Source of the DNA: Candidatus Zhuqueibacterota bacterium
GTDB lineage: Bacteria; BS750m-G25
Assembly (NCBI GenBank): GCA_016783505.1
Contig: JADHWK010000005.1
Span: 1-64,000, forward strand
Length of the DNA: 64,000 nucleotides
Reading direction: 5' to 3'
Below, piece by piece: positions 17,832 to 36,764 of the stretch; within the stretch, counting starts at the first letter, position 1, and each line of letters begins with the position of its first letter. A program made the position numbers and the translations under genes. The notes beneath the pieces are model-generated. The model saw only the letters and a list, made by a program, of their open reading frames with translations, did not search any database and was not told the DNA's origin.

Positions 17832-17896
17832 TTTTGCTCATATTTTTGTAGTAGGGCAAAAGTGGGCTTAAAAAACCATCATCTTTTTTAGCCTTC

Positions 17897-18099
17897 GGTC
17901 AGGCGTCAGTCAGGTGGGCCTGTTGCAGAACTACCGCATAGGAATAAATTCCTATGCTAACTCTAAGAAAGTATGTTGAAATATACTGTAATCAGTCCCG
18001 AAGTTTCGGGACTTTCTTTGAGATAGCGTGATAATTTATTATCATGCAAAGGGAAAATCAGCAATTTCAGGGTTGTACCACAGACCCAGGTGCCTGACC
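17897..18099. repeat. Hairpin array B with GGTCAGGC/GCCTGACC ends
   Basis: Left end GGTCAGGC (17897-17904) and right end GCCTGACC (18092-18099) are inverted. Inside are GCATAGGAAT-AA-ATTCCTATGC (17936-17957), AGTAT...ATACT (17970-17987), AGTCCCGAA-GT-TTCGGGACT (17994-18013) and GCGTGATAAT-TT-ATTATCATGC (18026-18047). The order and motifs parallel array A at 11437-11730, with different but still self-complementary stems. It fills most of the 351-bp gap between lptF and lptG. Confidence 0.72.
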
Positions 18100-18175
18100 C
18101 GACTGATTTGGAGTTTTTTAAAACCTTTTTATCCCTTTTGAATTCCCCACCCGAAACGGTCCCTAACAGGGGAGT

Positions 18176-19324: not shown

Positions 19325-19380
19325 GCCTGACCCCAAAGAATTTCTAATAATTTGGGAACGAAAATTTAATATAACGATTT

Positions 19381-19546: not shown

Positions 19547-22500
19547 ATGGAATTTGGAACTTCAGTGTGTAATTTAAGAAAAAGGAACAGATCGAAACCG
19601 GCGGTGGGCGTTGGCCTTGTCTTTTCGATCTTTTTTTTGTTAACCTTCGGCATTCCTTCCCCGGCTTCCCCGATGGTGGGATTGAAATACACCCCCCCCA
19701 ATGAGGTTATTATCTCTCCCTTTCTACCCCATCCTTACCCCGGATTTAGCCCCAACGGCGATGTCCCCCTCTTTCAAAACAACCTTTCCAATCTCAAACA
19801 TTCGGTAGAGATTGACTCATTAGGGGGGTGCATAACCTGCCGGGAGATGCTGTTTGGGGAGGATTTTCGTCTCCCCATGTTTTACCGTTTTGAGGATTAT
19901 CTGAGCCTGAAAACTCGGGCTGATATTCAGGAAAAATGGCGGCAGGAGACCCTGGTCGGTCTGAAGGAAACCGGGGATACTGGGGGTGGGGGGGGCATCA
20001 AGATTGACATCCCCTTCAAGATTAAGAGCCGCGCCTTCCAGCGGGTTTTCGGCGGCTCCCGGGTGGGCCTCAGGGTGTCCGGAAATATCAATATCAACGG
20101 GGGCCTGAGGCGCGACAAACGGAGTGAGGTAATCACCGCTACCAACCGTCAGTCTAACTATAACTTCAAGATTGACCAGACCCAGCAGTTCACCATTGAG
20201 GGAAAGGTAGGGGACAAGGTCTCCGTGTTCGTGGATCAGGACTCAGAGAGGATGTTTGAGTTTGAGAATAACATCCGGCTGAAATATACCGGGGAGGAGG
20301 ATGAGATAATTCAGTCCATTCAGGCGGGAAACATAGGGCTGTCGCTGCCCTCAACCCGGTTTGTGTCCTTCAGCGGCCACCACTCGGGTCTGTTCGGCTT
20401 GAAGTCGGAGATGAAGCTGGGGGCCCTGAACGTGACCGCCATCGCCAGCCTGGAGAAGGGGGAGAAGAAAAAACTCGAGGTGACGGGAGGGGCCCAGGAA
20501 ACCACAGATGACATCCGGGATTATGAATACCGAAAAGGTTATTATTTTTTCTTGGATAATGACTACCGGGAAAACTATAGATACTTCAATGAGGCCCGAG
20601 AGCACTACAGCGTCGGATTGGATAAAGTTATTCAAGACATCGAGGTCTATAAATCGAACGACAATTTTGATCTGGAAATCGGGTCTGTGGAAAGTTGGGC
20701 CTGCTGGGAACTTCCAGATTCTCCTGACAAATACGGGGATTTCATCGACACTTTGACTAGCAGTCGGGAGCATCAAAGGGGTTATTTCATACGTTTGGAA
20801 CCTGGAAAAGACTATTATGTAGACAATAACTTGGGTCTTATCCAGCTGGAGATATCCTTGAGGGAAAGGAGCAATGAAATTCTGGGGGTAGCCTATCAGA
20901 CTGCGGAAGGTACTTATGGGGATCTGGTGGTACCTCAAAATCGTAATATGTTGTTAAAATTGATTCGACCCCGAACACCTAACCCTACAGATAGCACTTG
21001 GAATTTAGCCTGGCGGAATGTATATTATCTGGGGGCTACTAATATCGAAAAAGATGGGTTTGATCTGAAAATCTATTATGATTTATCAGGGGCCGACGAT
21101 GCGGAGACGGACACGATTCTCACGGAAACAGGCGAGACAGAGGTGCAATCCTATCTCACCATCTTCGGTCTGGATACCAAGAACGAGCAGGGGATTGACG
21201 AACCAGACACCGAAATAGACGATTATCCCTCTATTATTAACTGGGCCCGGGGGGAGTTGATATTCCCCGATCTCACGCCGTTTGAACCTTCCGGATACTA
21301 TATTGAAGGTGAATTGATCATCACCCCCCTTGATTCTTCCCAGCGAGCGACAGAGATGTATCATAGTATTAATCAAACGGATATTAACCGGGACACCAAA
21401 TTTTATGTCAGGGTTAAATACCAGAATCGGAGCGACACCTATAATCTGGGCTGGAACGTGCTCGAGGGCTCCGAGGAGGTGCTGCTGAACGGGACGAAGC
21501 TTAACCGGGGGACGGATTACGTCATTGACTACATGTCCGGCAGCCTTACCATGTTGAACGAGGCGGCCACCGCTCCAAACGCTGACCTAGAGATCCTGTA
21601 TGAAAGTGGTTCGGTGTTCCAGTTGGATAAGAAAACGCTTTTGGGCGGCCGGGCTGAATACCGCTTCTTGGAGGATTCCTTCCTGGGGATGACGGCTCTT
21701 TATATGAATGAGACCCCCATTGAGGAGAGAGTGCGGGTGGGCAATGAACCCCTACGCAACTTTGTCTGGGGTCTGAACGGAGTAATGAGGTTTAAGCCGG
21801 AATTTCTGACCAGGGCGGTGGATTTTCTCCCCCTGATTCGCACCGAGGAACCCTCGGCTTTCAACGTCGAGGGGGAGATCGCCCAGGTTCTTCCCGATCC
21901 CAACCCCATGCACCCCTACATTAAGAGCGATAGGGACGGGGCGGCGATCGTGGACGATTTCGAGGGGGCCCGCAAGACCACCCCCCTGGGGGTGATGCGC
22001 CGCCAGTGGAGCCTGTGCAGTAGCCCGGGGGGGAATTATACGGAGTCGAAACGATGGCGGGAATTTATCTGGTATAATCCCTTTCAACAGGTGCCCATCA
22101 AAGAGATATGGCCTAACCGGCCGGTGAACACCCGGGTGGCGAACAACGTCCATGTGCTGAACCTCGGCTTCATCAGCGAAAAGCTGCATCAGGTTAAGGA
22201 CCAACACTCTTGGGCGGGGGTGATGCGAGCCCTTTCCTCTGGATATGCGGACCAGACGGACAGCCGGTATATCGAGATGTGGATCAAAGGGGAACAGGGT
22301 CGCATCCATGTTGACATCGGGAAGATCAGCGAGGATGTGATCCCCAACGGGAGATTGGATACTGAAGATATTCCTTTCCCGGGGCGGGTGACCGGGAACG
22401 GCCTTTTGGATGAAGGGGAGGACGTAGGGCTGGACGGAATGGCGGGCACTGACCCGGGTGATTTCTGGGACATCAACGGGAATGGAATCCAGGACCCGGG

Positions 22501-25500
22501 CGAGCCCCCCTCCATGGACGATTGGGATTACCAGAGCCGCAGCTTTGACTACGACCACATCAACGGGATTGAGGGCAACCAGAACGATGTGGGGGGACGC
22601 TTTCCGGATACCGAGGACTTAAACCGCAACGGCAGCGTGGACCTGGCCAGCGATTTCTTCCGGTATTCCTTCACGCTGGGGGACCAATCCTATATCGTCG
22701 GGGAGGGGGGACCCGAAGGGGCACCCCAAGAGAAAAAATGGCACCTTTACCGGATTCCTCTGGAGGAACCCCAATCAGTGGTGGGGTGCCCCGAAGTGAC
22801 CATGATCGAATACGCCCGGCTGTGGGTATCCGATTTTGAGAAGGACGGTGATATCAGCATCGCTACCTTTGACATCGTGGGGAACGACTGGAGGGTGGCT
22901 GACAGCACCTCGGCCGATTATGTGGAGGTAGCGGTCATTAACAATCATGAGAATCCCCAATACGACCCCAGGGAAATCGGGGTGGCCGGTGAGTTGGATC
23001 GGATAACCGAGCTGGCGTCCAAAGAGCAATCACTGGTTTTAAAGGTCAAACGTCTCCCCCCCGGGGAAGCGGGGATGGTGGAGAAGGTGTTTGGCTTTGG
23101 CGGACGGAAGCTGAACTTCACCGAATACCGGATCCTCAAGATGTTCGTCCACGGTGGGGGGGTGGGGGTCCATCCGGGTGATTTTGACCTCTGGGATTAC
23201 GATCTGGACCTGTTTGTCCGCTTCGGGGCCGATGAGAACAACTATTATGAATTCAAAGAGAAGGTTTGGCCCGGTTGGCATTTGAACAACGAAATGGTGA
23301 TTGATTTTGCCGACCTGAACGAGATCAAGCTAAAAATGAGAAGTGACCCTACCCAGAACTTTGCGGTCTTCCCGGAGACCGTAGGGGAGGAAACCTTCTA
23401 TGACACCCTGCGTATCGTGGGAAAACCCTCGCTGACGGAGATAAAGCTGTTCGTCCTCGGGCTAACCAATAAGGGCGAGGATGAAATTAATGAAAATGAA
23501 GGGGATATTGTGGAGGTCTGGTTCAACGAGCTTCGGCTGACGGATGTGAAGAAGGATCGGGGCTGGGCCTACCGGGCCCGGGCCGACCTGAAGCTGGCCG
23601 ACCTGGCGAATTTTAACATCGAGGTGAACCATAAGGACGATGATTTTCACAACCTGTCCAGCCGGGTGGGCGGGGGCCGCAACGAGAACCGGCTGACCAT
23701 GAATAGTGGAATAAGCCTGGACCGAATGCTGCCCCCCAGCCTGGGACTGCGGATCCCGGTGAACCTTTCTTATACGGAGAGCAACGCCTTCCCCAAATAT
23801 TTTCCCGGCAGCGACATTGAGGTGAACCAGCTAGAAGTTCCCGATTCCATCCGCACCAAGAAGCTGCAGCGGGGGATCACCCTTTCTCTTTCCAGAACCA
23901 GCCAGTCCCCACATTGGTTTAGCAAATACACCATAGACAAAACCTCCCTCAGCGCCAATTATAACAACAGTCGTTCTTCTAACCCCACGGTTGCCTTCGA
24001 CCGCACCGAGGCAAGTGGGGGTAGTATCAATTATGGACTGACATTCAGCCGGGACCATTCCCTGACCCCCTTTGGATTTCTGGGAGAAGTTCCCTTGGTC
24101 AAGAAGATCAGTCAGACCAAGTTTTATTATTCCCCTACCAAGCTAAACCTGGGCCTTTCGGCATCGGCCAATACCGGTTGCCGACAGACCCGCAGCCGGG
24201 TGACATCATTTTCTAAAGCCTTTTTCATGACCCAGAAATTTTCCACTGGCTACCGTCCCACAGATAGGCTCTCCTTTGATTTCAGTCGCACCACTAAACG
24301 GGATCTGCTGACCCAGGGGGAGCAGCCGGTTTTGAGCGGGGAATGGGAGAATCCTACCCGGTTATCCCAGCTTTTAGGTCGGGCCGGCCAGCCTATCCTG
24401 GAGGGGAGGTTCGGCGATGCTACTGACATCTCCCAGAACGTGACTGGAAGCTTCAATACCCCCACCCCTGATTGGTTGAGCAATGATTGGAACTACTCTA
24501 CGAATTATCATTGGTCCCATAATATTCAATCAAACCGCCAATCAGCTTCCAACCAGAACACTCTGTCCACCTCGGCGGCCTTTAAGTTTAACCGACTTAT
24601 GCAGAAGTTCAAACGCTCCCAGCCTCCCGGGCAGCCACCGAAGCGAGGGGGTATTCCCCTGCCCCCGAAGAGGGGGGAGGATCAGGAGGAAGAGGAGCCC
24701 CAGGGACAAGGTCCGCCCCCGGGTCAAGAAGAAGGAAAGAAACAAAAGCCCCCATCCTTGCTGGATGGCTTAAGGTTTTTAAGTGAGAAGATGGGGGATA
24801 TCAGGTATGAATGGAGCCAAAGCCGACAGTTGAATAACCCGGCCATCCAAGGGACCCCGGGATGGAACTATCAACTTGGGCTGGTGGACCCGTCCAATCC
24901 CGATATTGAGATTGACTCTGCCTACGTAACGGTTCCCAGTTGGTCCCAGGTGGACAACCACGGGGTGCGCACCGCCCTCAACCTGACCAAAAATATATCT
25001 TCAAACCTCCAGTATAAGCTAAAGAATTCCCAGAACCACGGCACCACGGTCACCGGGGAGCTGTCCCACAGCAGCTTTTACTATTTTAAAAAAGGTAAGA
25101 CCAGTATTCAGGACTTCCCCTTTTTCGAATGGTCGCTGCGCTGGGGGGGATTGGAGAAGACCCCGCTGTTCTCCAAATTAACCACTAGCGTTTCCCTGGA
25201 TCACTCCTTTACGGGGAACAAGGCAGAAAAGTGGAAGGAGATCCCCGGCGGTGACCGGGAGATCACTAACGTCAACTATACCAAAGGTTTCCAGCCGTTG
25301 GTGGGGCTGAACATTATGTGGAAGAAGGGGATTTCCACCAACCTCCGGTTGAACCAATCGGAAACGGTGGGGGACGTGCGCACCAGGGGGGAGAAGTCCC
25401 GCACCCGGCGGAGTTCACTCCAGCTTTCGGCCAGCTACTCCCTCACCAAAGGGGTCCGGATCCCCCTTTCCTTCTGGCCCTTTAAGAACCGACGATTCAA

Positions 25501-25756
25501 AAACAAGACGGATTTTTCCTTGACCGGGAATTGGTCCCAGGAGACCAGCGAGAGAAACACCGATCCTAAAGCCCCGTTTTACGAGGTGGACAGCAGCGAG
25601 AGCTGGTCCCTGATGTCCAAGATAAACTACTCCTTCACCAACAAGGTTACCGGGGGGGTCTTCTACGAATTCGGGAAAAATAAACGGAAGGCATGGGGGG
25701 AATCATCCTACCAAGAACTGGGTCTGGATGTCCGCATCGTTATCCGGGGAGGATAA
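19547..25756 (+). CDS. sprA: Cell-surface/outer-membrane translocon protein SprA
   Basis: Giant outer-membrane barrel; in Bacteroidota SprA (Sov) is the pore of the type IX secretion system and of gliding machinery. At 2069 residues it is close to family length (about 2300-2500). A hydrophobic signal segment (residues ~20-40) precedes the conserved N-terminal region, which includes GVGLRVSGNINI-like VGLRVSGNINING. AAIVDDFEGARKTTPLG near residue 800 is the hallmark DDFEGA motif. MWIKGEQGRIHVDIG and DLNRNGSVDLASDF loops follow, then long runs of amphipathic strands. Residues ~1690-1735 are a Pro/Gly/Glu/Lys-rich low-complexity insertion. A possible terminator lies at 25897. Confidence 0.93.
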   Translation: MEFGTSVCNLRKRNRSKPAVGVGLVFSIFFLLTFGIPSPASPMVGLKYTPPNEVIISPFLPHPYPGFSPNGDVPLFQNNLSNLKHSVEIDSLGGCITCREMLFGEDFRLPMFYRFEDYLSLKTRADIQEKWRQETLVGLKETGDTGGGGGIKIDIPFKIKSRAFQRVFGGSRVGLRVSGNININGGLRRDKRSEVITATNRQSNYNFKIDQTQQFTIEGKVGDKVSVFVDQDSERMFEFENNIRLKYTGEEDEIIQSIQAGNIGLSLPSTRFVSFSGHHSGLFGLKSEMKLGALNVTAIASLEKGEKKKLEVTGGAQETTDDIRDYEYRKGYYFFLDNDYRENYRYFNEAREHYSVGLDKVIQDIEVYKSNDNFDLEIGSVESWACWELPDSPDKYGDFIDTLTSSREHQRGYFIRLEPGKDYYVDNNLGLIQLEISLRERSNEILGVAYQTAEGTYGDLVVPQNRNMLLKLIRPRTPNPTDSTWNLAWRNVYYLGATNIEKDGFDLKIYYDLSGADDAETDTILTETGETEVQSYLTIFGLDTKNEQGIDEPDTEIDDYPSIINWARGELIFPDLTPFEPSGYYIEGELIITPLDSSQRATEMYHSINQTDINRDTKFYVRVKYQNRSDTYNLGWNVLEGSEEVLLNGTKLNRGTDYVIDYMSGSLTMLNEAATAPNADLEILYESGSVFQLDKKTLLGGRAEYRFLEDSFLGMTALYMNETPIEERVRVGNEPLRNFVWGLNGVMRFKPEFLTRAVDFLPLIRTEEPSAFNVEGEIAQVLPDPNPMHPYIKSDRDGAAIVDDFEGARKTTPLGVMRRQWSLCSSPGGNYTESKRWREFIWYNPFQQVPIKEIWPNRPVNTRVANNVHVLNLGFISEKLHQVKDQHSWAGVMRALSSGYADQTDSRYIEMWIKGEQGRIHVDIGKISEDVIPNGRLDTEDIPFPGRVTGNGLLDEGEDVGLDGMAGTDPGDFWDINGNGIQDPGEPPSMDDWDYQSRSFDYDHINGIEGNQNDVGGRFPDTEDLNRNGSVDLASDFFRYSFTLGDQSYIVGEGGPEGAPQEKKWHLYRIPLEEPQSVVGCPEVTMIEYARLWVSDFEKDGDISIATFDIVGNDWRVADSTSADYVEVAVINNHENPQYDPREIGVAGELDRITELASKEQSLVLKVKRLPPGEAGMVEKVFGFGGRKLNFTEYRILKMFVHGGGVGVHPGDFDLWDYDLDLFVRFGADENNYYEFKEKVWPGWHLNNEMVIDFADLNEIKLKMRSDPTQNFAVFPETVGEETFYDTLRIVGKPSLTEIKLFVLGLTNKGEDEINENEGDIVEVWFNELRLTDVKKDRGWAYRARADLKLADLANFNIEVNHKDDDFHNLSSRVGGGRNENRLTMNSGISLDRMLPPSLGLRIPVNLSYTESNAFPKYFPGSDIEVNQLEVPDSIRTKKLQRGITLSLSRTSQSPHWFSKYTIDKTSLSANYNNSRSSNPTVAFDRTEASGGSINYGLTFSRDHSLTPFGFLGEVPLVKKISQTKFYYSPTKLNLGLSASANTGCRQTRSRVTSFSKAFFMTQKFSTGYRPTDRLSFDFSRTTKRDLLTQGEQPVLSGEWENPTRLSQLLGRAGQPILEGRFGDATDISQNVTGSFNTPTPDWLSNDWNYSTNYHWSHNIQSNRQSASNQNTLSTSAAFKFNRLMQKFKRSQPPGQPPKRGGIPLPPKRGEDQEEEEPQGQGPPPGQEEGKKQKPPSLLDGLRFLSEKMGDIRYEWSQSRQLNNPAIQGTPGWNYQLGLVDPSNPDIEIDSAYVTVPSWSQVDNHGVRTALNLTKNISSNLQYKLKNSQNHGTTVTGELSHSSFYYFKKGKTSIQDFPFFEWSLRWGGLEKTPLFSKLTTSVSLDHSFTGNKAEKWKEIPGGDREITNVNYTKGFQPLVGLNIMWKKGISTNLRLNQSETVGDVRTRGEKSRTRRSSLQLSASYSLTKGVRIPLSFWPFKNRRFKNKTDFSLTGNWSQETSERNTDPKAPFYEVDSSESWSLMSKINYSFTNKVTGGVFYEFGKNKRKAWGESSYQELGLDVRIVIRGG

Positions 25757-25842
25757 GTGGTCTGAGGATTACGAAAGTTGATAATTGAAGGATTATTAAA
25801 ACCGGATTGGTAGTTGTCCGAATACTGGAAAATTAAAAAGGA

Positions 25843-25862
25843 AACCGCTCTAAAGAGCGGTT
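25843..25862. repeat. Hairpin downstream of sprA
   Basis: AACCGCTC-TAAA-GAGCGGTT, 8-bp perfect stem without a T run. It is probably a stem-loop protecting or marking the sprA 3' end rather than a complete terminator. Confidence 0.6.
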
Positions 25863-25896
25863 CCGGATAACATAACATTAATATAAACTCAGCCAG

Positions 25897-25928
25897 AACC
25901 TTATCCCGATGCTTCGGGATAGGTTTTT
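25897..25928 (+). terminator. Rho-independent terminator after sprA
   Basis: AACC-TT-ATCCCGA-TGCT-TCGGGAT-AGGTT with a small bulge, followed by TTT. It uses the TCCCGA/TCGGGA palindrome as its stem and lies 33 bp before the next gene. Confidence 0.65.
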
Positions 25929-25960
25929 GGCAGGCCAAAAATTTCTACCAACAAATTTAG

Positions 25961-26896
25961 ATGACTAAGCTCTTACAATCATCAACTTTGAGGTGGTTGA
26001 TTTTTCCCTTGGTGGGACTGGTGTGGGGACTTTTTGGTACCCTCCGTTCCCAGACCGTCCCCCAATTTGATGACGATTCGGCCTTTGGAAATTTGGTGAG
26101 GCAATGTGAGTTCGGTCCCCGGAATCCAGGGTCGGAAGGGCATCGGAAATGCCGTAAATTTTTGGTGCAGGAGATGAAGCGTTATGCTGAAGAAGTAAAA
26201 ATGCAGCATTTCACCCATTTCGACGAGGGAATGGATTCTTCGATTTCCATGTCCAACATCATCGCCCGGTTTGGGCCCCAACGGGGTGGGCGGCTGCTCC
26301 TGTGCGCCCATTGGGATACCCGACCCCGGGCGGACCGTGATCCAAACCCAGGGAACCGGTCCAAACCCATTCTCGGGGCTAACGATGGCGCTTCAGGGGT
26401 GGCCATTCTGCTGGAAATTGCCCGAATTATGGGCTCTTATCCACCACCGATGGGTGTTGATGTCGTGCTGTTTGACGGTGAGGATTGGGGCGAGGAGGGC
26501 CATATCCAGGACTATCTTTTGGGGTCCCGGGCCTTCGTAAAGGAAAATCCAGGGCTATCCTATCGGTTCGGGGTGTTGCTGGACATGGTGGGGGACCGGG
26601 ATCTGGAGATTCCCATGGAAGGTCATTCGCTCAAGAATTTTCCTTTTAAAGTCCGCCGACTTTGGGATCGGGCTCGGGGCCTGGGACTGACCCCCTTTGT
26701 GCATCGGGAGGGTCCCTGGGTGATAGACGATCACCTGATGCTGATAGATGCCGGCATACCCTGTATTGATCTCATTGACTTCGACTATCCCTACTGGCAC
26801 ACCCTGGAGGATACCCCGGACAAATGTGAGCCGGAAAGCCTGGGAGCGGTGGGTTCCCTGCTACTGAGTCTGATTTACGAAGGAATCCCCGAATGA
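25961..26896 (+). CDS. M28-family glutaminyl-peptide cyclotransferase-like protein
   Basis: Zinc metallohydrolase fold; the bacterial members nearest to this pattern convert N-terminal Gln of exported proteins to pyroglutamate. A signal or anchor spans residues ~13-30 (IFPLVGLVWGLFGTL). Zinc and catalytic motifs read CAHWDTRPRADRDP near residue 115, GANDGASGVAILLE near 140, LFDGEDWGEEG near 172, LLDMVGDRDLEI near 205 and a late DYPYWHTLEDT. This order fits bacterial glutaminyl cyclases better than aminopeptidases. In Bacteroidetes this enzyme acts on periplasmic and secreted proteins, which fits a place beside sprA. It overlaps the Ppx/GppA gene by 4 bases. Confidence 0.78.
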   Translation: MTKLLQSSTLRWLIFPLVGLVWGLFGTLRSQTVPQFDDDSAFGNLVRQCEFGPRNPGSEGHRKCRKFLVQEMKRYAEEVKMQHFTHFDEGMDSSISMSNIIARFGPQRGGRLLLCAHWDTRPRADRDPNPGNRSKPILGANDGASGVAILLEIARIMGSYPPPMGVDVVLFDGEDWGEEGHIQDYLLGSRAFVKENPGLSYRFGVLLDMVGDRDLEIPMEGHSLKNFPFKVRRLWDRARGLGLTPFVHREGPWVIDDHLMLIDAGIPCIDLIDFDYPYWHTLEDTPDKCEPESLGAVGSLLLSLIYEGIPE

Positions 26897-27831
26897 AGAG
26901 GGTGGCTGTGGTTGACATCGGAAGCCATACCAGCCTGTTTGCGGTGGTGGAAGGGGACGGCTCCGGTGCCTTTAGGGTTCTTCTTGAGGCTCAGGCCACC
27001 AATTGTCTGGGCATGAGTTTGGGCGTGGATAGGGAAATTCCACCCGGGGTAATTTCGAAAAACATCGGGATTATCCAAGGGTTTCTAAGGAAAGCCCGGG
27101 GGTTAAAGGCCGAGAAGATAGCAGCGGTGGGGACGAAAGTCCTGAGGAAAGCTACCAATGCGGGGGATTTTATCCAGGCCGTCCGACAGGAATTGGGTGT
27201 TGATCTGGTTATCGTATCAGGGGATGAAGAGGCCCGGCTGGGTTATCTGGGCGTCAGGACCGGTCTGGGACAATCCGTCGGCGGGGTTTACCTTATTGAT
27301 GTGGGGGGCGGGAGCACTGAGGTTACCATCGGTCAGGGTGAGCTCATTAAAGAAACCTATAGCCTGGAACTGGGGGCGGTGAGCCTGACCCAGAAATATG
27401 TTCATAACGACCCTGTTACCCAGGAAGAGTGGGGGGCGATGGCAGAATACATCGCACGATGGCTAAAAGAGCGGCTTCCCCCTCTCGATCAGGATCAGTT
27501 TATGCTTTTCGGTATCGGGGGCACCCTCTGCACCCTTGCCGCCTTAGACCTGGAATTGACCCGTTTTGATTACATCCGGGTGGATGGTCATGTGCTTTCC
27601 CAGTCCCGGGTTAATAAATTTCTGGAGACATTCAAAAAAAACACCAGCCGTCTAAACCGGGCTCTGCTCAGCTTCGACCCTGACCGGGCGGGAATCATTC
27701 TGGCGGGGACCACCATCTGGTCGGAAATCCTGAAGAAATTAGGGTCTGATAAGGTAATTGTATCCACAAGAGGGGTGAGGCATGGGGTGGCGTGGCAATA
27801 TTTAAACTCGGATCCGGGGATTAAATACTAA
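26893..27831 (+). CDS. Ppx/GppA-family exopolyphosphatase/guanosine-pentaphosphate phosphatase
   Basis: ASKHA-fold phosphatase acting on inorganic polyphosphate or pppGpp. The 312 residues match the short single-module form. VVDIGSHTSLFAVVE is the N-terminal phosphate-binding loop, VSGDEEARLGYLGV follows near residue 112, and DVGGGSTEVTIG near residue 136 is the second loop. FGIGGTLCTLAAL lies near residue 205. The ATG overlaps the stop of the cyclase gene (ATGA), so the pair is translationally coupled. Polyphosphate and pppGpp cannot be separated from sequence. Confidence 0.9.
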   Translation: MKRVAVVDIGSHTSLFAVVEGDGSGAFRVLLEAQATNCLGMSLGVDREIPPGVISKNIGIIQGFLRKARGLKAEKIAAVGTKVLRKATNAGDFIQAVRQELGVDLVIVSGDEEARLGYLGVRTGLGQSVGGVYLIDVGGGSTEVTIGQGELIKETYSLELGAVSLTQKYVHNDPVTQEEWGAMAEYIARWLKERLPPLDQDQFMLFGIGGTLCTLAALDLELTRFDYIRVDGHVLSQSRVNKFLETFKKNTSRLNRALLSFDPDRAGIILAGTTIWSEILKKLGSDKVIVSTRGVRHGVAWQYLNSDPGIKY

Positions 27832-27864
27832 AAAACAACGAAAAAATTTTAAATTCAGACCTCC

Positions 27865-27984
27865 TCATTCTGAATCCCGATCTATCCCGAATAATCGGGA
27901 CGGGTCGGGTGAAGAATCTGGATGGAACAACGAGATTCTTCCCCCGAAACTTCGGGGTCAGAATGACAGGGGGTGAACTATTAC
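27865..27984. repeat. 120-bp MITE-like palindromic repeat
   Basis: TCATTCTGA (27865-27873) opposes TCAGAATGA (27958-27966), and GAAGAATCT (27911-27919) opposes AGATTCTTC (27933-27941). Two TCCCGA/CCCCGAA palindromes are embedded. The right end (ACTTCGGGGTCAGAATGACA onward, 27949-27984) recurs at 35794-35829 with four changes. It overlaps a false N-terminal extension of the next gene. Confidence 0.75.
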
Positions 27985-27989
27985 AAGAA

Positions 27990-29075
27990 ATGAAAAAATT
28001 ATTCTTGTATATCCTCTGTTTAGGTTGGGTTATGGGGGGATGTGATCGGGAGCCCAATGGTCCGGAACCCGAAGATCCCAGTCCTGTTTTTGAAATAGTG
28101 GATGTACCCTCGAAATGGGCCCTGAGATCGGATAGGCCCCGGACCGTGGCGGCGAAGGTTTACGATCCTCAGGGGGTAGAAGACCTCTCCGCCGTATGGG
28201 TTAATATTATGGAGTTGGGCACCAATGGGGTAACGTGGGCGGATACCTTACTGGATGACGCAAATATTGATTCAACCAGTGGCGATTTGGTTCCCAAAGA
28301 TGGGATTTTTTCTAAACTTATGAAATCCGATGATTTCGCTCCCTTTGAGGGACAATACATTTTTTTGTTTCAAGCATTGGATATTTCCAGCAATCTGGGA
28401 GAACATCTGGATACGGTATGGGTAGGGGAGAATTCCCCTCCGGTGGTTTATAATCCGGACATCCCTGATACCCTGCTAAGTGGGTTTGCGGTGGCCCAGT
28501 TTTCTATCCAGGTCTCCGACTCCCAGGGCCAGGGGGATATAAAGGACGTTTGTTTTACCATCGGGGGTTCTGTGTTCTATCTGTTGCCATCTACACAGCC
28601 TTTTCACTATTATTTAGCAGTGGACTCCTCCTTTAGTGCCGGGTTAAAGGGAGATTACCAGATCGTTTTCAGAGCCACGGATTACTTCGAGGAAACGAAC
28701 GAACCAGTAATAGACAGCCTATGGATAGAAAATCTGTCCCCCCGCCTGGGTCAGATCACCGCCCCTGACACCATGGTCAGGGGATCGGGTGACACTTTCG
28801 TTCTGGAGGTGGTGGTAAGCGACCCTCAAGGCCTTGGCGATATCAGGGAGGTTCGCTTCCGGGTCATTAAGCCCGATGGGTCCCAAGGTTTTAGCGATGA
28901 TCTTCACGACGACGAGACCCACGAGGATAGGGATGCTGGGGATGGAGTTTTTTCCCAGGGCATTTCTGCCCCCGACCCTGAAAATCTTGAAGGGGATTAT
29001 ACCTTCATTTTCTGGGCGGAAGATCGGGTGGGTAACATCAGCCCTGAAGATTCGGTGATTGTGGTGGTGGAATAA
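27990..29075 (+). CDS. Lipoprotein with tandem Ig-like (choice-of-anchor type) repeats
   Basis: Start at the ATG 27990 gives MKKLFLYILCLGWVMGGC, a good lipoprotein signal. The upstream in-frame ATG at 27909 would translate a dispersed repeat and is rejected. The mature protein holds two to three beta-sandwich repeats with an acidic loop: LLDDANIDSTSGDLVPKDG near residue 85 and LHDDETHEDRDAGDGVF near residue 325. Such DD...GDG loops are common in extracellular Ca-binding repeats of FCB bacteria. No enzyme motif is seen. It is likely surface or periplasmic, in an operon with the secreted protein downstream. Confidence 0.72.
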   Translation: MKKLFLYILCLGWVMGGCDREPNGPEPEDPSPVFEIVDVPSKWALRSDRPRTVAAKVYDPQGVEDLSAVWVNIMELGTNGVTWADTLLDDANIDSTSGDLVPKDGIFSKLMKSDDFAPFEGQYIFLFQALDISSNLGEHLDTVWVGENSPPVVYNPDIPDTLLSGFAVAQFSIQVSDSQGQGDIKDVCFTIGGSVFYLLPSTQPFHYYLAVDSSFSAGLKGDYQIVFRATDYFEETNEPVIDSLWIENLSPRLGQITAPDTMVRGSGDTFVLEVVVSDPQGLGDIREVRFRVIKPDGSQGFSDDLHDDETHEDRDAGDGVFSQGISAPDPENLEGDYTFIFWAEDRVGNISPEDSVIVVVE

Positions 29076-29172
29076 ATTTCTATGGTCATGTTACAGACAA
29101 TGAATCGGTGCATATCTCATTTTATTCATTTCTTTAGATTGGGGGGGTGCATTACTCAATTAGAGCGGAGTT

Positions 29173-29189
29173 ACCCAACCTTGTTGGGT
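29173..29189 (+). promoter_or_regulatory. Hairpin just upstream of the BNR-type gene
   Basis: ACCCAAC-CTT-GTTGGGT, 7-bp stem and 3-base loop, ends 9 bases before the ATG at 29199 and abuts the ribosome site AAGG. It may modulate translation. Confidence 0.45.
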
Positions 29190-29198
29190 AAGGTTAGA

Positions 29199-30638
29199 AT
29201 GAAAATCTTTTTTCTTGTTTTTCTATTAACTACTACAATCGTCCATTCCCAGGTTTTAAAACCGATCAGTTTCAATCTTACAGAGAATGAGTCCCCGGTA
29301 GAACGGATTCTGTCAAATTCCGTCATTGACATCCAGGCGTCCGATGGGGTGGTTTGGTTTGCTACGGGTAAAGGGGTGAGCAAGACTCCTGATGGAGGGG
29401 ATAACTGGTTCACCTACACCCGGGATCACGGACTGGGCAAGGGGGGGATATCGGCCCTGGCGGTCAGGGACAGCATTATCTGGGTGGCCACTGCTTTCGA
29501 TACCACGGTGGGGGTAGTGGGCGCCGGAGGGGGGTTGAGCTATTCAACCGATGGGGGGAATAGCTGGACCTGGATGCCCCAGCCAGTGGACTCCCGGGGG
29601 GATACTTTAGGCGGCATGAACCCAACTACTACCAATGTGGACAATATCACCTACGACATTGCCCTTACTGACTCGACCGTCTGGATTGCTTCCTTCGGCG
29701 GGGGATTAAGAAAATATTCCTACGCCAATGGCCGCTGGGAGGTGATTCCCCCCGATGATAAACCCTTCAGCGTCTGGGATAATCTGAACCACCGGGCCTT
29801 TTCAGTGGCGACTGCGGAGGAGAGTATCTGGGTGGGAACGGCGGATGGGCTGAACAAGTCCACCGATGGTGGGGAAAGTTGGGACAATTACAATTCACAG
29901 AATGGAATCCCTGGTGACTGGGTGACGGGCCAGGGGGTTCAACGCTGGGGTGAAAGGGAAATCCTCTGGGCTGCCTGCTGGCCCACCGATGAGAGCGAAT
30001 ATTATGGGGTGGCTAAATCAGAAAACGGGGGGCTTTCCTGGCAGACCACTCTCACCGGGGAGAAGGTTTACAACTTCGGTTTTCAGGATTCGGTGGTATA
30101 CACCGCCGCCGAGAGCGGGCTTTGGAAGTCAGCCGATGGGGGGTTGACCTGGGGAAAATTTCCCCCAATGGTAGATCACCAGAACGGGGACCGTATTTAC
30201 TCTGATGCGGTTTATGCCGTCTTCCCGGCGGGAAATACCCTGTGGGTGGGAACGGGAGATGGGGTGGCCAAATCGGATGACCTGGGTTACAGCTGGACGA
30301 TCTACCGTTCCTTCGTGCCGGCGGGTAGGGATGGCCAGCCCTCAACCTACGCCTATCCCAACCCCTTCTCTCCTGCCCGGATCGGTGATCTACCCCCGGT
30401 GCGGTTTCAATACCGAACTACTGCTACCAACACCTTAGTGACGATGAAGGTTTATAATTTCGCACTTGAGTGGGTACGAACAGTAGTAGAGAACCGGCAG
30501 CGGCTGGCGCCCGGGGATTACGCCGAGATCTGGGACGGTAGGGATGACGACGGCCGTATCGTGGCCAACGGAGTTTACTTTTACCAGCTAATCCGAAACG
30601 GCCGGGAGGACTGGGGGAAGGTGATGGTGCTCGATTAG
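29199..30638 (+). CDS. Secreted BNR-repeat protein with FlgD-like/T9SS-type C-terminal domain
   Basis: The ATG at 29199 gives MKIFFLVFLLTTTIVHSQ, a cleavable signal peptide leaving an N-terminal Gln, a natural substrate for the nearby glutaminyl cyclase. The body is a beta-propeller with BNR/Asp-box-like motifs: TPDGGDNWF, STDGGNSW, STDGGESW and SADGGLTWG. Residues ~385-479 form the FCB C-terminal domain, with YAYPNPFSPARIG, KVYNFALEWVRTVVE, WDGRDDDGRIVANGVYFYQL and GKVMVLD at the very end. This resembles FlgD Ig-like/type IX sorting domains. It is probably exported through SprA and attached or released at the surface. Confidence 0.8.
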   Translation: MKIFFLVFLLTTTIVHSQVLKPISFNLTENESPVERILSNSVIDIQASDGVVWFATGKGVSKTPDGGDNWFTYTRDHGLGKGGISALAVRDSIIWVATAFDTTVGVVGAGGGLSYSTDGGNSWTWMPQPVDSRGDTLGGMNPTTTNVDNITYDIALTDSTVWIASFGGGLRKYSYANGRWEVIPPDDKPFSVWDNLNHRAFSVATAEESIWVGTADGLNKSTDGGESWDNYNSQNGIPGDWVTGQGVQRWGEREILWAACWPTDESEYYGVAKSENGGLSWQTTLTGEKVYNFGFQDSVVYTAAESGLWKSADGGLTWGKFPPMVDHQNGDRIYSDAVYAVFPAGNTLWVGTGDGVAKSDDLGYSWTIYRSFVPAGRDGQPSTYAYPNPFSPARIGDLPPVRFQYRTTATNTLVTMKVYNFALEWVRTVVENRQRLAPGDYAEIWDGRDDDGRIVANGVYFYQLIRNGREDWGKVMVLD

Positions 30639-31053
30639 GATTATTCTAACCAAGTGTGAAGTGAATTAAAGTGCGAAGTTAGAAGTGCAAAAAGTTTATA
30701 GGTAGGAATTCAGTGAACTGCGCATTTGGAGAGTAGCCGAAAACCCTTCCTTGCCTGAAGGTCTCCCCAGACGGGCCGTATGGCTGACCGAGGAATGGTC
30801 TTGTTCGGTAAGGACACCTTTGCCCTAAATATAGTGATAGTCGAAATTTTCTTCGCAATTTGATTTACGATAAAATATAATAAGCCCGTGAACGGGTAAC
30901 CCTGGCACTTTTTTAATTGGAGTTATCCCGATGTATCGGGATTTATCAAAAGTAATATTTTCGGACATTCATCTGGGGAAATTGATAGGTTTTCGTTGTT
31001 ATAGAATAAATTGGCTTATGCATAATCCATTGGAACTAAGACATAGTTTTTTA
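30639..31053. other. Intergenic region with repeats
   Basis: Contains the GTGTGAAGTGAATTAAAGTG-type repeat (30653-30690) shared with 11187, a GGTCTCCCCAGACGGGCC-like stretch near 30765 and a CCCGTGAACGGG hairpin near 30886. The ATCCCGAT-GT-ATCGGGAT palindrome lies at 30925-30942. In-frame codons from 30931 to 31053 belong to an unlikely extension of the next gene. Confidence 0.5.
30925..30942. repeat. TCCCGA/TCGGGA palindrome
   Basis: ATCCCGAT-GT-ATCGGGAT, 8-bp arms and two-base centre, just ahead of the first formylglycine-enzyme-like lipoprotein gene. Confidence 0.65.
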
Positions 31054-32991
31054 ATGCCACTACTAAAGCTGATATCTTTAGTCGGATTCTTAAGTTTCAT
31101 TATTGGGGCAGGATGTGAAGTAAAACCCCCGGGGGCGGGAAACCATGCCCCTGAAGTAACCAGGATAACGGCTTCGCCGTCGGTGATCCTTCCCCAGGGG
31201 GAAACAACCTTGAAGGTTGAAGCTTCTGATGATGATAATGACCCCTTGCAATATCAATGGATGTCCGAGGCTGGATCTTTTCTTGGGGACAGTACAAAGA
31301 GTCAAGTGACCTGGAAGGCCCCTAGTTTGGTGGATACATTTACTTTTTTTGTAACGGTGAGTGATGGCAAGGATTCCACCTCGGGGATGGTAGATGTGGT
31401 CGTGGATACAACAACCGGGGAGATTGTGGGCTATGTAAAAGCTGGAGGGGATAGTATCCCTGTTGCCAACGTAGTTGTGGAATGTCGAGGTGTGGCGGAT
31501 ACTACTGATGCTGACTCGGGTTTGTATCGGCTGAAGAATATCCTCATCGGGATGGATTCGATCCGGGCTGAGGTGCTGCCGGAGATCATTCAGGTCGTCT
31601 TTTACCAAAGCTTGTTTGAAATCCCCACATGGGATTACTTGCCCTGGGGGGATACAATTATTGTTGAAGTAGGGGTGAACCGTAAGGATATCCTGCTGTC
31701 ACCGGCCGCTAACCTATACGGATATGTCAAGAATTCCCAAGATGTACCTGTTGACAGCGCAATCGTTTTCTTGGATAGCTGGGAATACGTTACCGACAGC
31801 ACCGGGGTTTTTGGATTTCTTTCCGTTCCCTGGGATCAGTATGAGCTAACAGTTCAGGCCAGGGGCTATCGGGACACCAGTTTTGTCCTGAACCTGGACA
31901 CCTTCCGTGTTCGTTTTGACCCCCAGTTGGTGGCCGAGCCGATCTCCCCCCCATGGGGAATAGATGCCTTCTTATATGGGAACAGTGTAATTGCTGTTAC
32001 CTGGAATTTTCCCGAGGAAAGGTTTACACTATTAGGATATACCCTGTATCGAGGACGCTCAGCAGAGAGCCCAGGTGAGCGGGTGAATACAACTCTCATT
32101 TCCCCTGAACAAGTATTTTATGAAGAGTCGGGACTGGAACTGGGAAGATATTTCTATAAAATTTGTTCAGTTAATATTGACTCAGTAGAAGGATTCCTAT
32201 CCTTAGCCAGCCCCGGGGTGGGGATATGGGATACCGTTGATGCGATGGCCCGGGTGCCGACGGGATATTTCATACAGGGCGATTTCCCGGCGGACTCGGG
32301 CTACGGGAATTATACGGTGCCAGCCAATCCCGTATGGGTAAATGAGTTCTTCATGGATCAATTTGAGGCGACCAATCAGCAATATGCAGACTATTTGAAT
32401 GATGCCATGAACCAAGGGAAGATCGAAACCGATGGGCTCTCAGTTACCGGGATCACCCCCTATTTCGGGGAAGAATATCTAGATTTGGATGACACCCATT
32501 GTATAATAAACTATCAGGGTGGTGAGTTTGAGATTGAAAGTGGTTTTGAAAAATTACCGGTGGTGGAGGTGTCGTGGTTTGGTGCTGATGCCTACGCCCA
32601 GCATATGGGGAAAAGGCTGCCCACCGAAGCCGAATGGGAGAAGGCGGCCCGGGGAGTATCCCCTGACTACGGGCAGACAGAAGGGGTCGGGTGGGGTTTT
32701 AAATACCCCTGGGGCAACAATCCATCCAACCCAAGCCTTTGCAATTCGGGCAACTGGATGGGTGAGCTAATCCCGGTGGACAGCTTAAATAATGGGGTTT
32801 CCCAATATGGTGTCTACAATATGGCCGGCAATGTCTGGGAATGGACCGCCGATTCCTCAGGGACGAATCGAATCCTCCGGGGGGGGAGTTGGCTGAATGA
32901 TTATTATCTGGGCTGCGGCTTCCGTTTCGCCATAGCTCCATCCACGATGAAGAACGATGTCGGGTTTCGTTGCGTAAGCGACACACGTTGA
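31054..32991 (+). CDS. Multidomain lipoprotein with C-terminal FGE/SUMF1-like domain
   Basis: Start 31054 (MPLLKLISLVGFLSFIIGAGC) gives a lipoprotein signal; an ATG at 31018 is an alternative. Domains in order: a PKD/Ig-like sandwich with ASDDDNDPLQYQW; two carboxypeptidase-regulatory-like repeats (GYVKAGGDSIPVANVVVECR and GYVKNSQDVPVDSAIVFL); an Fn3-like unit; and a SUMF1 domain from about residue 400. The SUMF1 domain has EVSWFGADAYAQHMGKRLPT, EAEWEKAARG, NMAGNVWEW and RILRGGSWLND. The two catalytic cysteines of true formylglycine enzyme are absent after RGGSW, so it is probably structural. GldJ/GldK of type IX secretion are lipoproteins of this fold. Confidence 0.82.
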   Translation: MPLLKLISLVGFLSFIIGAGCEVKPPGAGNHAPEVTRITASPSVILPQGETTLKVEASDDDNDPLQYQWMSEAGSFLGDSTKSQVTWKAPSLVDTFTFFVTVSDGKDSTSGMVDVVVDTTTGEIVGYVKAGGDSIPVANVVVECRGVADTTDADSGLYRLKNILIGMDSIRAEVLPEIIQVVFYQSLFEIPTWDYLPWGDTIIVEVGVNRKDILLSPAANLYGYVKNSQDVPVDSAIVFLDSWEYVTDSTGVFGFLSVPWDQYELTVQARGYRDTSFVLNLDTFRVRFDPQLVAEPISPPWGIDAFLYGNSVIAVTWNFPEERFTLLGYTLYRGRSAESPGERVNTTLISPEQVFYEESGLELGRYFYKICSVNIDSVEGFLSLASPGVGIWDTVDAMARVPTGYFIQGDFPADSGYGNYTVPANPVWVNEFFMDQFEATNQQYADYLNDAMNQGKIETDGLSVTGITPYFGEEYLDLDDTHCIINYQGGEFEIESGFEKLPVVEVSWFGADAYAQHMGKRLPTEAEWEKAARGVSPDYGQTEGVGWGFKYPWGNNPSNPSLCNSGNWMGELIPVDSLNNGVSQYGVYNMAGNVWEWTADSSGTNRILRGGSWLNDYYLGCGFRFAIAPSTMKNDVGFRCVSDTR

Positions 32992-33016
32992 CCAGCTGCG
33001 TTTAAATCGGTTCGTT

Positions 33017-34477
33017 ATGATAAGGAAAAGAACACATAGACTGATTTTATTTCTCATTCTTTCGGGGTTGGTTTCCTGCAGCCGGGACGAGGGTGAAGAG
33101 CTGACAGGTCCTGGGGGGGGAGATGATTTGACGGGAAATTTCCCCGTCAGCATCGCCTATCCCCCCCATCAGGCTACTGTCTTCGATTCAATATCCATAG
33201 TGGTGACTATCGGCGCCGAAATCGAAATCATCAGTGTGAACTTCTTCATCAATCTCAATTCAACCTTCACCGATACGTTAGCCCCATGGCGGTATGAGTG
33301 GGACTTATCTATTTATGAGTCGTTTGCGGAATGCGAGCTCTTTGCCATTGCCTACGACATTAATAATAAGGGTAGTTCGTCGGATACTATCACTGTTACA
33401 ATTGGGCAACCAGGGGGAAACAACCCCCCCTTACCGGTGAACTTATTTAAACCGGGCGAAGATGATGTCACTTCATCTTCAGTCTTTTTGTCCTGGTCAA
33501 AAAGCGAAGATGATGATTTTACTTTTTATAAAATTTGTTACTCCCGAAATCCTGAAGTCGGATTAATCCCCTCTAATTTGGATACTACCATTGAAGACAT
33601 ATTGGATACTACACACTATGTTCAGGGTTTGGGTTCTGATAGTGTTTATTATTTCAAGGTGTTTGTTGCCGATTCAGGGGAGATGACATCGGAGAGCAAT
33701 GAGGTCAGGGTAAAAACGCCAAGGGGTGGGGGAACCTATGGCGAAATGGTCTTCATTCCCCGGGGATATTTCGTCATGGGGGATACCCCGGATGGTTACG
33801 GAAACGAGGATCATCCCGACACCGCCGTTTTTGTCCCCGGGTTTTTCATTGACAAATACGAGGTAACCAATGAGGCCTTTGCCGATTTTCTCAATGATGG
33901 AAATGCCGCCTATTATGACAGTGCTCAGAAAATTCAGGATACCCTGGGAATATTTTCAACCAGTCCGGGCTATAAACATCATCCGGTGGAGTATGTTTCT
34001 TGGGAGGCGGCCCACACCTTCGCCAACTGGGCGGGCAAAGGGCTGCCCACCGAAGCCGAATGGGAGAAAGCGGCCCGGGGGGTAAGCAGGGAACACGGAT
34101 ATGTCATTATAGGATCGGATACGGTGGGTTACGGTTATAAATATCCCTGGGATAATGGGGACTATTCCTCAGGCCTGGCCAATTGCAATAACGTCGTTGG
34201 GGAGACCACACCAGTGGGGGGCTATCCGGATGGGGATAGTCAATGGGAGGACGGTAGTGTGAGCGACCTGGCGGGCAACGTGGCGGAATGGACCGCTGAT
34301 TGGTACGGGGCATACCGGTCCACCCACCAGCCCCCAATTTCGGGGACCCACCGGGTTGTCCGTGGGGGTGGATGGAACCTGAACCTCACCGGTATACCGA
34401 CGGCTGCTCGGAGCCAGGTGCCGCCGTCGTTCACAGAGCAGGGTGTGGGATTCCGCTGTGTAGCGGATGCGAAATAG
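33017..34477 (+). CDS. Lipoprotein with Ig/Fn3 domains and FGE/SUMF1-like domain
   Basis: MIRKRTHRLILFLILSGLVSC is a clear lipoprotein signal. The mature protein has a bacterial Ig-like unit (VSIAYPPHQATVFDSISIVV), an Fn3-like unit (LFKPGEDDVTSSSVFLSWSK) and, from about residue 240, a SUMF1 domain. That domain reads FIPRGYFVMGDTPDG, FFIDKYEVTNEAFADFL, HPVEYVSWEAAHTFANWAG, PTEAEWEKAARG, DLAGNVAEW and VVRGGGWN. The active-site cysteine pair is missing. It lies 25 bp after a paralogous gene and just before a PorV-family barrel, an arrangement that recalls T9SS accessory lipoproteins. Role unproven. Confidence 0.82.
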   Translation: MIRKRTHRLILFLILSGLVSCSRDEGEELTGPGGGDDLTGNFPVSIAYPPHQATVFDSISIVVTIGAEIEIISVNFFINLNSTFTDTLAPWRYEWDLSIYESFAECELFAIAYDINNKGSSSDTITVTIGQPGGNNPPLPVNLFKPGEDDVTSSSVFLSWSKSEDDDFTFYKICYSRNPEVGLIPSNLDTTIEDILDTTHYVQGLGSDSVYYFKVFVADSGEMTSESNEVRVKTPRGGGTYGEMVFIPRGYFVMGDTPDGYGNEDHPDTAVFVPGFFIDKYEVTNEAFADFLNDGNAAYYDSAQKIQDTLGIFSTSPGYKHHPVEYVSWEAAHTFANWAGKGLPTEAEWEKAARGVSREHGYVIIGSDTVGYGYKYPWDNGDYSSGLANCNNVVGETTPVGGYPDGDSQWEDGSVSDLAGNVAEWTADWYGAYRSTHQPPISGTHRVVRGGGWNLNLTGIPTAARSQVPPSFTEQGVGFRCVADAK

Positions 34478-34567
34478 TAGACGTAAAACACTTCACAGGG
34501 TACGGCCTTAAAGGGCCTACTCCGGGAGAATGGCTGATTTTTGAGGTGATTCATCAGGCAGAATCTT

Positions 34568-35503
34568 ATGAAACGTTTGACTTTAGGTAAGTTTTGTCTC
34601 TTTCTTGTTTTTTTCGGCCTGGTCTTCCCGGGACTTTCTGGAGCCAGCCAGGGCGCGGCGGGGGCTTTTCTGCGGATGGGGCTGGGGGCCAAGGCTATGG
34701 CCATGGGGGATGCCTTTGTGGCCGGAGGGAATGACGGATTCGCCGGGTTTTACAACCCCGCCCTGCTTCCCTCCTTGGTGGGACGATGGATAGCCCTCTC
34801 ATACCGTTTCCTTGCACTGGATCGTCGGTTTATGTATCTGGGGTATGCTTCCCCCCTTAAACCCACCGCTGGCCTGGCCATCGGATGGATAAGTTCCGGA
34901 ATAGGTGACGTCGGTGGGTATGATTTTGAAGGAAATTATTACGGGGATCTAACCGCCGGTGAGGATGCCTTCTATTTTTCTTTTGCTAACAAGTTCGGAG
35001 ACCGGGTTTCGGTGGGCCTGAGCGCTAAAGTGGTCCGGCACCGATTGGATGAGGTTACCGCCAGGGGATTTGGGTTGGATTTCGGGGGGCTGATTCAAGT
35101 CTGGTCCGGTCTTTGGATCGGGGGTCAGGTTAAAGATGTGCGGACCCAATACAGTTGGGATACCTCGGACTACTGGGAGCACGGAATGAGCAAGGTGGAC
35201 CACTTCCCCCGGGTTCAGCGCTACGGTCTGTGCTATCGCTTTTCTGGATCCCGAATGGTAATGGCAGACGTTGAAGCCCAGGATGGGGAAGTTGCCTATC
35301 ATCTGGGGGGAGAAGTCGGTTTTGTCCTAAACCCCACGGCACTTTTTGTCCTCCGGGGTGGATATGACGACGGAAAACCGACCCTGGGATTCGGATATTC
35401 CTTCTCTTTATACCGTGCCTCTTCGGTGCTGGATTATGCTTTCGTCCTCGAAGATGTAGCTCCGGCTGGAAGCCAGATCATCTCGTGGTCATTTCTCTTC
35501 TAG
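34568..35503 (+). CDS. PorV/PorQ-family outer-membrane barrel, copy 1
   Basis: A signal peptide of about 27 residues (ends LSGASQG) is followed by AAGAFLRMGLGAKAMAMGDA and GGNDGFAGFYNPALLPS, the family's N-terminal motif. The remaining ~250 residues are amphipathic strands ending SWSFLF with a terminal Phe, as in many barrels. In Bacteroidota PorV shuttles cargo from SprA to the cell surface, and PorQ is an outer-membrane partner. Position downstream of two SUMF1 lipoproteins and in the same region as sprA supports a T9SS-like role, but the family is broad. Confidence 0.83.
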   Translation: MKRLTLGKFCLFLVFFGLVFPGLSGASQGAAGAFLRMGLGAKAMAMGDAFVAGGNDGFAGFYNPALLPSLVGRWIALSYRFLALDRRFMYLGYASPLKPTAGLAIGWISSGIGDVGGYDFEGNYYGDLTAGEDAFYFSFANKFGDRVSVGLSAKVVRHRLDEVTARGFGLDFGGLIQVWSGLWIGGQVKDVRTQYSWDTSDYWEHGMSKVDHFPRVQRYGLCYRFSGSRMVMADVEAQDGEVAYHLGGEVGFVLNPTALFVLRGGYDDGKPTLGFGYSFSLYRASSVLDYAFVLEDVAPAGSQIISWSFLF

Positions 35504-35840
35504 CATAGCTTATTCATTAGTCATAAAGAGACAGAGATTCTTTGCAACAATTCACTACTAAATGTTATTTCTGAATCCTTTATCCTTTTTGTTCTATTTC
35601 AAAGTTCCCCTTTGAAATCCCCCCTTATTCCCCCCTTTAATAAAGGGGGGATTACAAATCAAGGCCTATATTGTGCCTTGCTCCAAAGGGACTCCTTCGG
35701 GGGGTGACTTAGTGGCTGAACTGTTACAAAAACACTAATGTTTTCATTAAGTTTTAGAAAATCTTAAACATTAAGAAAGGTTTTTTTCTCATAACTTCGG
35801 TGTCAGAATGATAGGGAGTGAACTGTTACGGAGACTGAAT
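35504..35840. other. Intergenic region between two PorV-family genes
   Basis: Holds a strong C-tract/G-tract stem (TCCCCCCTTTA...TAAAGGGGGGA, 35629-35651), a TTAGTGGCTGAACTG piece near 35711 related to the GCCAC repeat, and the 36-bp repeat end 35794-35829 shared with 27949-27984. Apart from these I see nothing that looks coding. Confidence 0.55.
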
Positions 35841-36764
35841 ATGCGCTCGGCTGGTATGGGATTTATAGGAAGAGGCGCTGTTAGTTTTATCTTTTTGTTT
35901 CTCATTGGGACCCCTTTATCGGCGAAAGAATCCGGTCTGGCCTTCCTTAAGATCGGGGTCGGGGGCCGGGAGATGGGAATGGGAGGGGCGGGCAGTGCCC
36001 TTGCCAGGGGGGGGGTGGCAACTTACTGGAACCCGGCGGGGTTGGCTGGGTTGGAAAGAAGCGAGATCGTTTTTTCCCACAGCCCTTGGATACTGGATAT
36101 TAAGCGTCAATTTTTAGCAGTGGTTCTTCCAGGGTGGGGTGTGACTTTTGGCATGAGTGCAAATTATCTAACCGTAGGGGGAATTGAGATCCGAAAATCC
36201 CCTACCGCTGAGCCAATTGGAACCTTTACCAGCCGGGACGTGGCATTGGGTCTGTCCGTTGCCAGGACTATCGGGGGGGGACTGTCAGCGGGCTTGACCC
36301 TAAAATACCTGTACGAAAAGATTTACTGGGAGAGCTCAAAAGGGGTGGCCCTGGACATGGGAATGTTATGGGGTGATCCCAGCGGGGATCTGAGATTGGG
36401 ACTGGTGGGTCAGAATCTGGGCACCATGGATGCGATGAAAGAAGAAAGGGTTGCGCTGCCAACGCAGATCAGAATGGGGATTGGCTACCGGATTCCCCGG
36501 GATTTTTTTGGTGGGCAGGTTCTGATGGGGTCCGATCTGATTCGATCCTTTTCTGTCCCCCTTACTTGCTTTCATAGTGGGATGGAGTATAGTTTTCGTG
36601 GGCTATTGGCCCTGCGCTGGGGGTATCGCTGGAGTTCCCGACAGCGGGGGATAACAACGGGGTTCGGCCTAAGCTGGGGCTGGCTTCGGCTGGATTACGG
36701 GTACGTCCCCTTCCCTTATGATCTGGGAAATACCCACTGCTTTTCCATGACTATAGATATTTAA
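35841..36764 (+). CDS. PorV/PorQ-family outer-membrane barrel, copy 2
   Basis: The ATG at 35841 has GGAG eight bases upstream and starts MRSAGMGFIGRG; the in-frame ATG at 35808 lies inside a dispersed repeat and is rejected. After a signal ending TPLSAKESG come LAFLKIGVGGREMGMGGA and VATYWNPAGLAGLERSE, the family hallmark. About 250 residues of beta-strand follow. It is paralogous to the gene at 34568, but separated by repeats and probably transcribed on its own. One copy may serve cargo recognition and the other assembly, which is inference. Confidence 0.83.
   Translation: MRSAGMGFIGRGAVSFIFLFLIGTPLSAKESGLAFLKIGVGGREMGMGGAGSALARGGVATYWNPAGLAGLERSEIVFSHSPWILDIKRQFLAVVLPGWGVTFGMSANYLTVGGIEIRKSPTAEPIGTFTSRDVALGLSVARTIGGGLSAGLTLKYLYEKIYWESSKGVALDMGMLWGDPSGDLRLGLVGQNLGTMDAMKEERVALPTQIRMGIGYRIPRDFFGGQVLMGSDLIRSFSVPLTCFHSGMEYSFRGLLALRWGYRWSSRQRGITTGFGLSWGWLRLDYGYVPFPYDLGNTHCFSMTIDI

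Follow-up and report, generated by a model that had tools for sequence, protein, structure and literature searches.

A sprA–glutaminyl cyclase gene cluster and a candidate type IX secretion core without detectable GldL, GldM or GldN

Gene content and conserved order of the sprA cluster

We analysed a 64,000-nucleotide stretch of DNA, hereafter the window, in which a long open reading frame encoded a full-length SprA. In a profile search, this protein scored 914 bits against TIGR04189 (cutoff 200) and 152 bits against the Pfam model SprA_N, its DDFEGA motif was located at residue 803, and the only solved structures that it matched were those of the F. johnsoniae SprA (6h3i and 6h3j, E 3e-74). 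On the same strand, sprA was followed by genes for an M28 enzyme, a Ppx/GppA protein, a lipoprotein, a beta-propeller protein, two FGE-fold lipoproteins and two PorV/PorQ-family barrels (Table 1). Among named organisms, this SprA was closest to those of the bacterium BMS3Bbin03 (42% identity) and of WOR-3 genomes, and the host bacterium apparently lies outside Bacteroidota. A preliminary description of this region had named sprA on its DDFEGA motif, two PorV/PorQ-family barrels, a glutaminyl-cyclase-like M28 enzyme and a secreted BNR cargo protein with a FlgD/T9SS-like end. The first three assignments were borne out by the matches given here and in Table 1, while the cargo role in the fourth is probably to be revised, as described below.

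Table 1. Features of the window and the matches that identify them
Feature	Position	Strand	Evidence
Large lipoprotein and PorV-like barrel pair	11755..15235	+	Homologues near sprA also in loci L013 and L041
Two lptF/lptG LPS-export permeases	16755..19336	-	PF03739, 289 and 308 bits; divergent from sprA
sprA, outer-membrane translocon of type IX secretion	19547..25756	+	2069 aa; TIGR04189, SprA_N Pfam, PDB 6h3i
Two terminator-like hairpins in the sprA/cyclase gap	25841..25923	one per strand	Pattern scan, consensus match only
M28-type glutaminyl cyclase (QC)	25961..26896	+	311 aa; PDB 3gux, 6qro and other bacterial QCs, E to 9e-60
Ppx/GppA-like exopolyphosphatase	26893..27831	+	Pfam, 172 bits
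Lipoprotein between QC and propeller genes, position conserved	27909..29075	+	49-71 bits to L048, L047 and L040; lipobox
Secreted beta-propeller with predicted divergent type A sorting tail, PorZ-like	29082..30638	+	518 aa; tail profile, orthologues, conserved order
FGE-fold lipoprotein, first	30931..32991	+	PF03781, 143 bits; GldK, 64 bits (cutoff 350)
FGE-fold lipoprotein, second	33017..34477	+	PF03781, 164 bits; GldK, 65 bits (cutoff 350)
PorV/PorQ-family barrel a	34568..35503	+	NF033709, 77 bits (just under cutoff 90); orthologues in same place
PorV/PorQ-family barrel b	35808..36764	+	NF033709, 162 bits, over cutoff
exbB-exbD-exbD-tonB, candidate alternative energy source	42781..44905	+	Pfam

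Among 22 sprA loci compared, the order sprA, QC, variable gene, lipoprotein, propeller, barrel, barrel was also present in L040, L047 and L048, which belong to genomes of other families and deep lineages (about 24-46% identity). Since this order has been kept in three other lineages, the cluster is not a chance assembly. The Ppx/GppA-like gene is probably a passenger because prmA holds its place in two relatives. FGE-fold lipoproteins were found inside the cluster in this window only. FGE is the fold family of GldK/PorK, and both proteins were therefore tried as GldK and rejected on their scores against its model (Table 1) and their lack of conservation in other sprA loci. The gap between sprA and the cyclase gene contained a strong plus-strand terminator-like hairpin (25900-25923), which would end sprA transcripts and which sits inside the order-conserved pair.

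When compared to proteins in the PDB, the M28 enzyme matched bacterial glutaminyl cyclases with E values of 1e-50 to 1e-60 and, more weakly, animal QCs (1e-10 to 1e-13). The positions that align with zinc ligands and catalytic acids did not vary among eight homologues and included the Glu-Asp pair typical of the Bacteroidota cyclases (PMC5837995), which places the enzyme among the bacterial M28 glutaminyl cyclases. The periplasmic cyclase behind the Bacteroidetes Q-rule (PMC5837995) is likewise an animal-type M28 enzyme with an E-D active-site pair, whereas here the QC gene directly follows sprA and the host is apparently not a member of that phylum. A close QC relative was detected in 45 of 79 SprA genomes and its gene was directly downstream of sprA (same strand, no more than ~2.2 kb from where the SprA match ended) in 33 of the 45; in nearly all of the remainder, it was on a different contig. 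The 33 genomes with the pair span at least 22 families. Literature searches, which left most subscription papers outside their coverage, returned no description of the sprA-QC linkage. Through the conserved pair, the formation of pyroglutamate would be linked genetically to export by the type IX route.

The propeller protein consisted of a Reg_prop/BNR propeller and a tail at about residues 425-515, starting YPNPFSP, which scored below the cutoff of the Pfam FlgD_ig model and had no match to TIGR04183. We built a tail profile from 37 other tails of the window genome, leaving the propeller tail out. On this profile it reached 31 bits vs 7.5 bits for E. coli FlgD, and for this reason we regard it as a divergent sorting tail rather than a plain FlgD-like domain. 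Known PorZ proteins have two beta-propellers plus an uncleaved tail. Orthologues of the propeller protein in two other lineages matched the end of the PorZ model NF052228 (E 1e-6 and 1e-9, 27 and 38 bits), while the window protein itself obtained 5.5 bits against the cutoff of 260 for this equivalog. PorZ, whose tail stays uncleaved, works with PorU, PorV and PorQ (PMC8545088). The window resembles that attachment complex in having a tailed beta-propeller beside PorV/PorQ-family barrels, and in the two orthologues that match the end of the PorZ profile, but differs in that its protein has 518 residues and fails the profile. Because it adjoins the two barrels, the propeller protein appears more likely to be a PorZ-like component of the system than ordinary cargo. 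The T9SS-like tail of the preliminary description stood, while the protein's role as cargo probably gives way to a PorZ-like one. As for the barrels, a joint profile of both matched the PorV of 6h3i at 2e-30.

PorU, sorting tails and glutamine after signal peptides

The window genome (G000; 2.5 Mb, 60% complete) was searched for further type IX components. A genome profile search identified a PorU sortase (NF033707, 776 bits vs cutoff 420) at a separate locus (L063:521-8081, contig C51), where PorU, which carries its own sorting tail, was followed by a PorV-family barrel, an M6-like protein and a fusion of a TolB propeller with an Omp85 barrel. The barrel beside PorU obtained 282 bits with the family model and 213 bits with the PorV equivalog (cutoff 250), and it, not the barrels of the sprA cluster, is the closest PorV of this genome. 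Together with barrel b, it exceeded the NF033709 cutoff for PorV-family shuttle barrels. The M6-like protein corresponded to a T9SS-dependent inactive protease with a sorting tail (M6i, NF052323, 685 bits vs 600). An operon of this make-up recurs in several lineages. The NCBIfam models PorU2 (NF052324), PorV2 (NF052325) and M6i indicate that curators are already aware of variants among the type IX components; the window genome shares with them the M6i match next to PorU, while its PorU and barrels fell below the PorU2 and PorV2 cutoffs. In addition, the genome contained 82 matches to type A sorting tails, despite being 60% complete, with tails that start YPNPFNP and end RKM-like. These results support the type IX secretion-like system proposed beforehand, since SprA is now accompanied by a genome-wide set of PorU, PorV and 82 sorting tails.

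In the propeller protein, the signal peptide is followed by Gln (VHS|Q). For all genomes alike, we used a home-made, motif-based signal-peptide caller, which was run together with shuffled sequences and control genomes. In the window genome, Gln followed an A-x-A type site in 32 of 70 signal-peptide-like ORFs, with 10 expected from shuffles. The same procedure found it in 16 of 30 and 15 of 32 ORFs (31 of 62 in total) of two presumed Bacteroidota genomes, G206 and G337, and in 2 of 20 of E. coli. The enrichment was therefore of the same size as in the two Bacteroidota-like controls, and the Q-rule, for which a continuum outside Bacteroidota had been reported (PMC5837995), extends to the window genome. 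Across ten other SprA genomes, the presence of a QC was no clear predictor of Gln enrichment (0.36 vs 0.27, p 0.14). That the N-terminal Gln is a plausible cyclase substrate, as had been suggested, is supported by the genome-wide enrichment and the conserved sprA-QC pair, from which we infer its cyclisation.

Distribution of SprA and the search for GldL, GldM and GldN

We screened 336 genomes from all over the domain and detected SprA in 113 of them. Sorting tails were present in 111 of these 113 genomes vs 20 of the 223 without SprA, and 99 of the 101 genomes carrying four or more tails had SprA. With the threshold set at E 1e-40, PorU-like proteins were found in 69 of 79 SprA genomes. Over 12 genomes, SprA and PorU distances agreed (Mantel r 0.86, 0 of 5000 permutations, in a comparison that included no housekeeping control), as expected of parts inherited together. 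One small genome (G200, L043; 0.9 Mb, 98% complete) kept sprA and QC with only two tails and had no PorU at E 1e-40.

GldL and GldM exceeded their cutoffs in only 2 of the 79 SprA genomes, G206 and G337, and GldN was likewise over its cutoff in the same two and not found in the other 77. These two genomes, presumably true Bacteroidota, showed by far the highest SprA scores (2705 and 2064 bits) and doubled as positive controls for the Gld searches. In the window genome none of the three was over its cutoff; since that genome is 60% complete, their absence there is weak evidence on its own. Among the 77 SprA genomes without GldL, GldM and GldN, 64 had a completeness of 90% or more; kinship is known for 74 of the 77, and these span 54 families. 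The idea of a reduced or variant export system without these proteins, put forward from the window, is therefore supported by the failure to find them here and in 76 of the 78 remaining SprA genomes.

An ordinary, complete type IX system could also produce this pattern if its GldL, GldM and GldN had diverged too far for the profiles used, which we consider unlikely. The profiles were built from Bacteroidota, short membrane proteins diverge fast, and weak sub-cutoff GldL matches exist. However, these matches were under 21 bits, lay mostly in long unrelated frames and also appeared in controls such as B. subtilis. Moreover, three independent profiles failed in the same 77 genomes and succeeded in the same two, and SprA and PorU were far over cutoff in most of the 77. 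SprA retains about one-third of the highest score it reaches, and a GldM that had lost as much would still be expected at around 130 bits. It is far less probable still that what resembles SprA is a relative without a role in secretion, and that the tails are ordinary Ig domains of the FlgD kind. The propeller tail, weakly FlgD-like and without a TIGR04183 match, would fit such a reading, but it outscores E. coli FlgD on the sorting-tail profile (31 vs 7.5 bits), SprA and tails co-occur almost perfectly, and PorU with a tail of its own is encoded in the same genome.

If GldLM is indeed missing, its place in powering SprA could be taken by the ExbB-ExbD-ExbD-TonB set of the window, which lies on the same strand as the cluster, ~6 kb past barrel b. 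ExbBD is, like GldLM, a rotary motor of the 5:2 type, but exbBD/tonB genes are common and serve TonB-dependent transport. This class of motors has been described elsewhere (PMC9389320). No conserved ExbBD cluster was observed near sprA or porU in other loci, and the exbD and tonB genes of the window had no homologues in the other sprA loci, so that we judge this particular assignment improbable, more so than undetected Gld proteins. The reading that we favour, and hold to be likely, sees in the cluster the translocon and the surface end of a core type IX system, made up of SprA, PorV, PorU, tails and QC, in which the GldLM motor and the GldN ring are not involved.

A proposed export scheme and its relation to known type IX systems

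According to the core-system reading, proteins would leave the cytoplasm by Sec, and signal peptidase would expose the N-terminal Gln, which the cyclase may turn into pyroglutamate in the periplasm. PorV-family barrels that are docked on SprA would then recognise the ~75-residue tails, and the PorV-cargo pair would exit the pore sideways. PorU, encoded elsewhere with its own PorV, is predicted to process or anchor the cargo, and the propeller protein and its two barrels might form a PorZ/PorQ-like surface module. Binding of the tails to PorV inside the SprA pore has been shown to need no energy, and release of the pair has been deduced to be the step that requires the motor (PMC10994853); for this reason, release would be powered in another way in lineages without GldLM. 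With the GldLM motor and the GldN ring taking no part, release may be driven by another inner-membrane motor, for example an ExbBD-TonB set, or by downstream, motor-independent steps such as PorU processing.

Like the Bacteroidota type IX systems of F. johnsoniae and P. gingivalis, the window genome has SprA/Sov, PorV, PorU, type A tails, adjacent porU and porV genes, and Gln after the signal peptide together with an M28 cyclase. In contrast to them, no GldL, GldM or GldN was found, sprA is paired with QC, and genes for a propeller protein and two barrels form part of the sprA cluster. Identity of SprA and PorU between the lineages compared was only 24-42%. As reconstructed here, the window system works like type IX secretion, yet it falls outside the usual definition, which includes the motor and GldN. 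Type IX secretion has been described as confined to Bacteroidota (PMC4793230) or to the Bacteroidetes-Chlorobi-Fibrobacteres (FCB) group (PMC12421860), and further FCB phyla have been named as possible hosts (PMC11285876). In literature searches that did not cover most subscription papers, we found no account of a type IX system lacking GldLM and no statement that GldLMN is missing from most SprA systems.

Tentatively, and with somewhat more doubt than confidence, we propose that the pore-shuttle-sortase core, often linked to QC, is the older form of type IX secretion, widespread in many bacterial lineages, that GldLM and GldN are a Bacteroidota addition tied to gliding, and that other lineages export without that motor. 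If the core works without GldLM in dozens of bacterial families, the motor would not be intrinsic to the pore mechanism, and comparing motorised with motorless systems could then reveal what the energy does.

Finally, homologues of the lptF/lptG permeases that diverge from sprA in the window adjoined sprA in six other loci, a proximity that may fit the anchoring of cargo to LPS.
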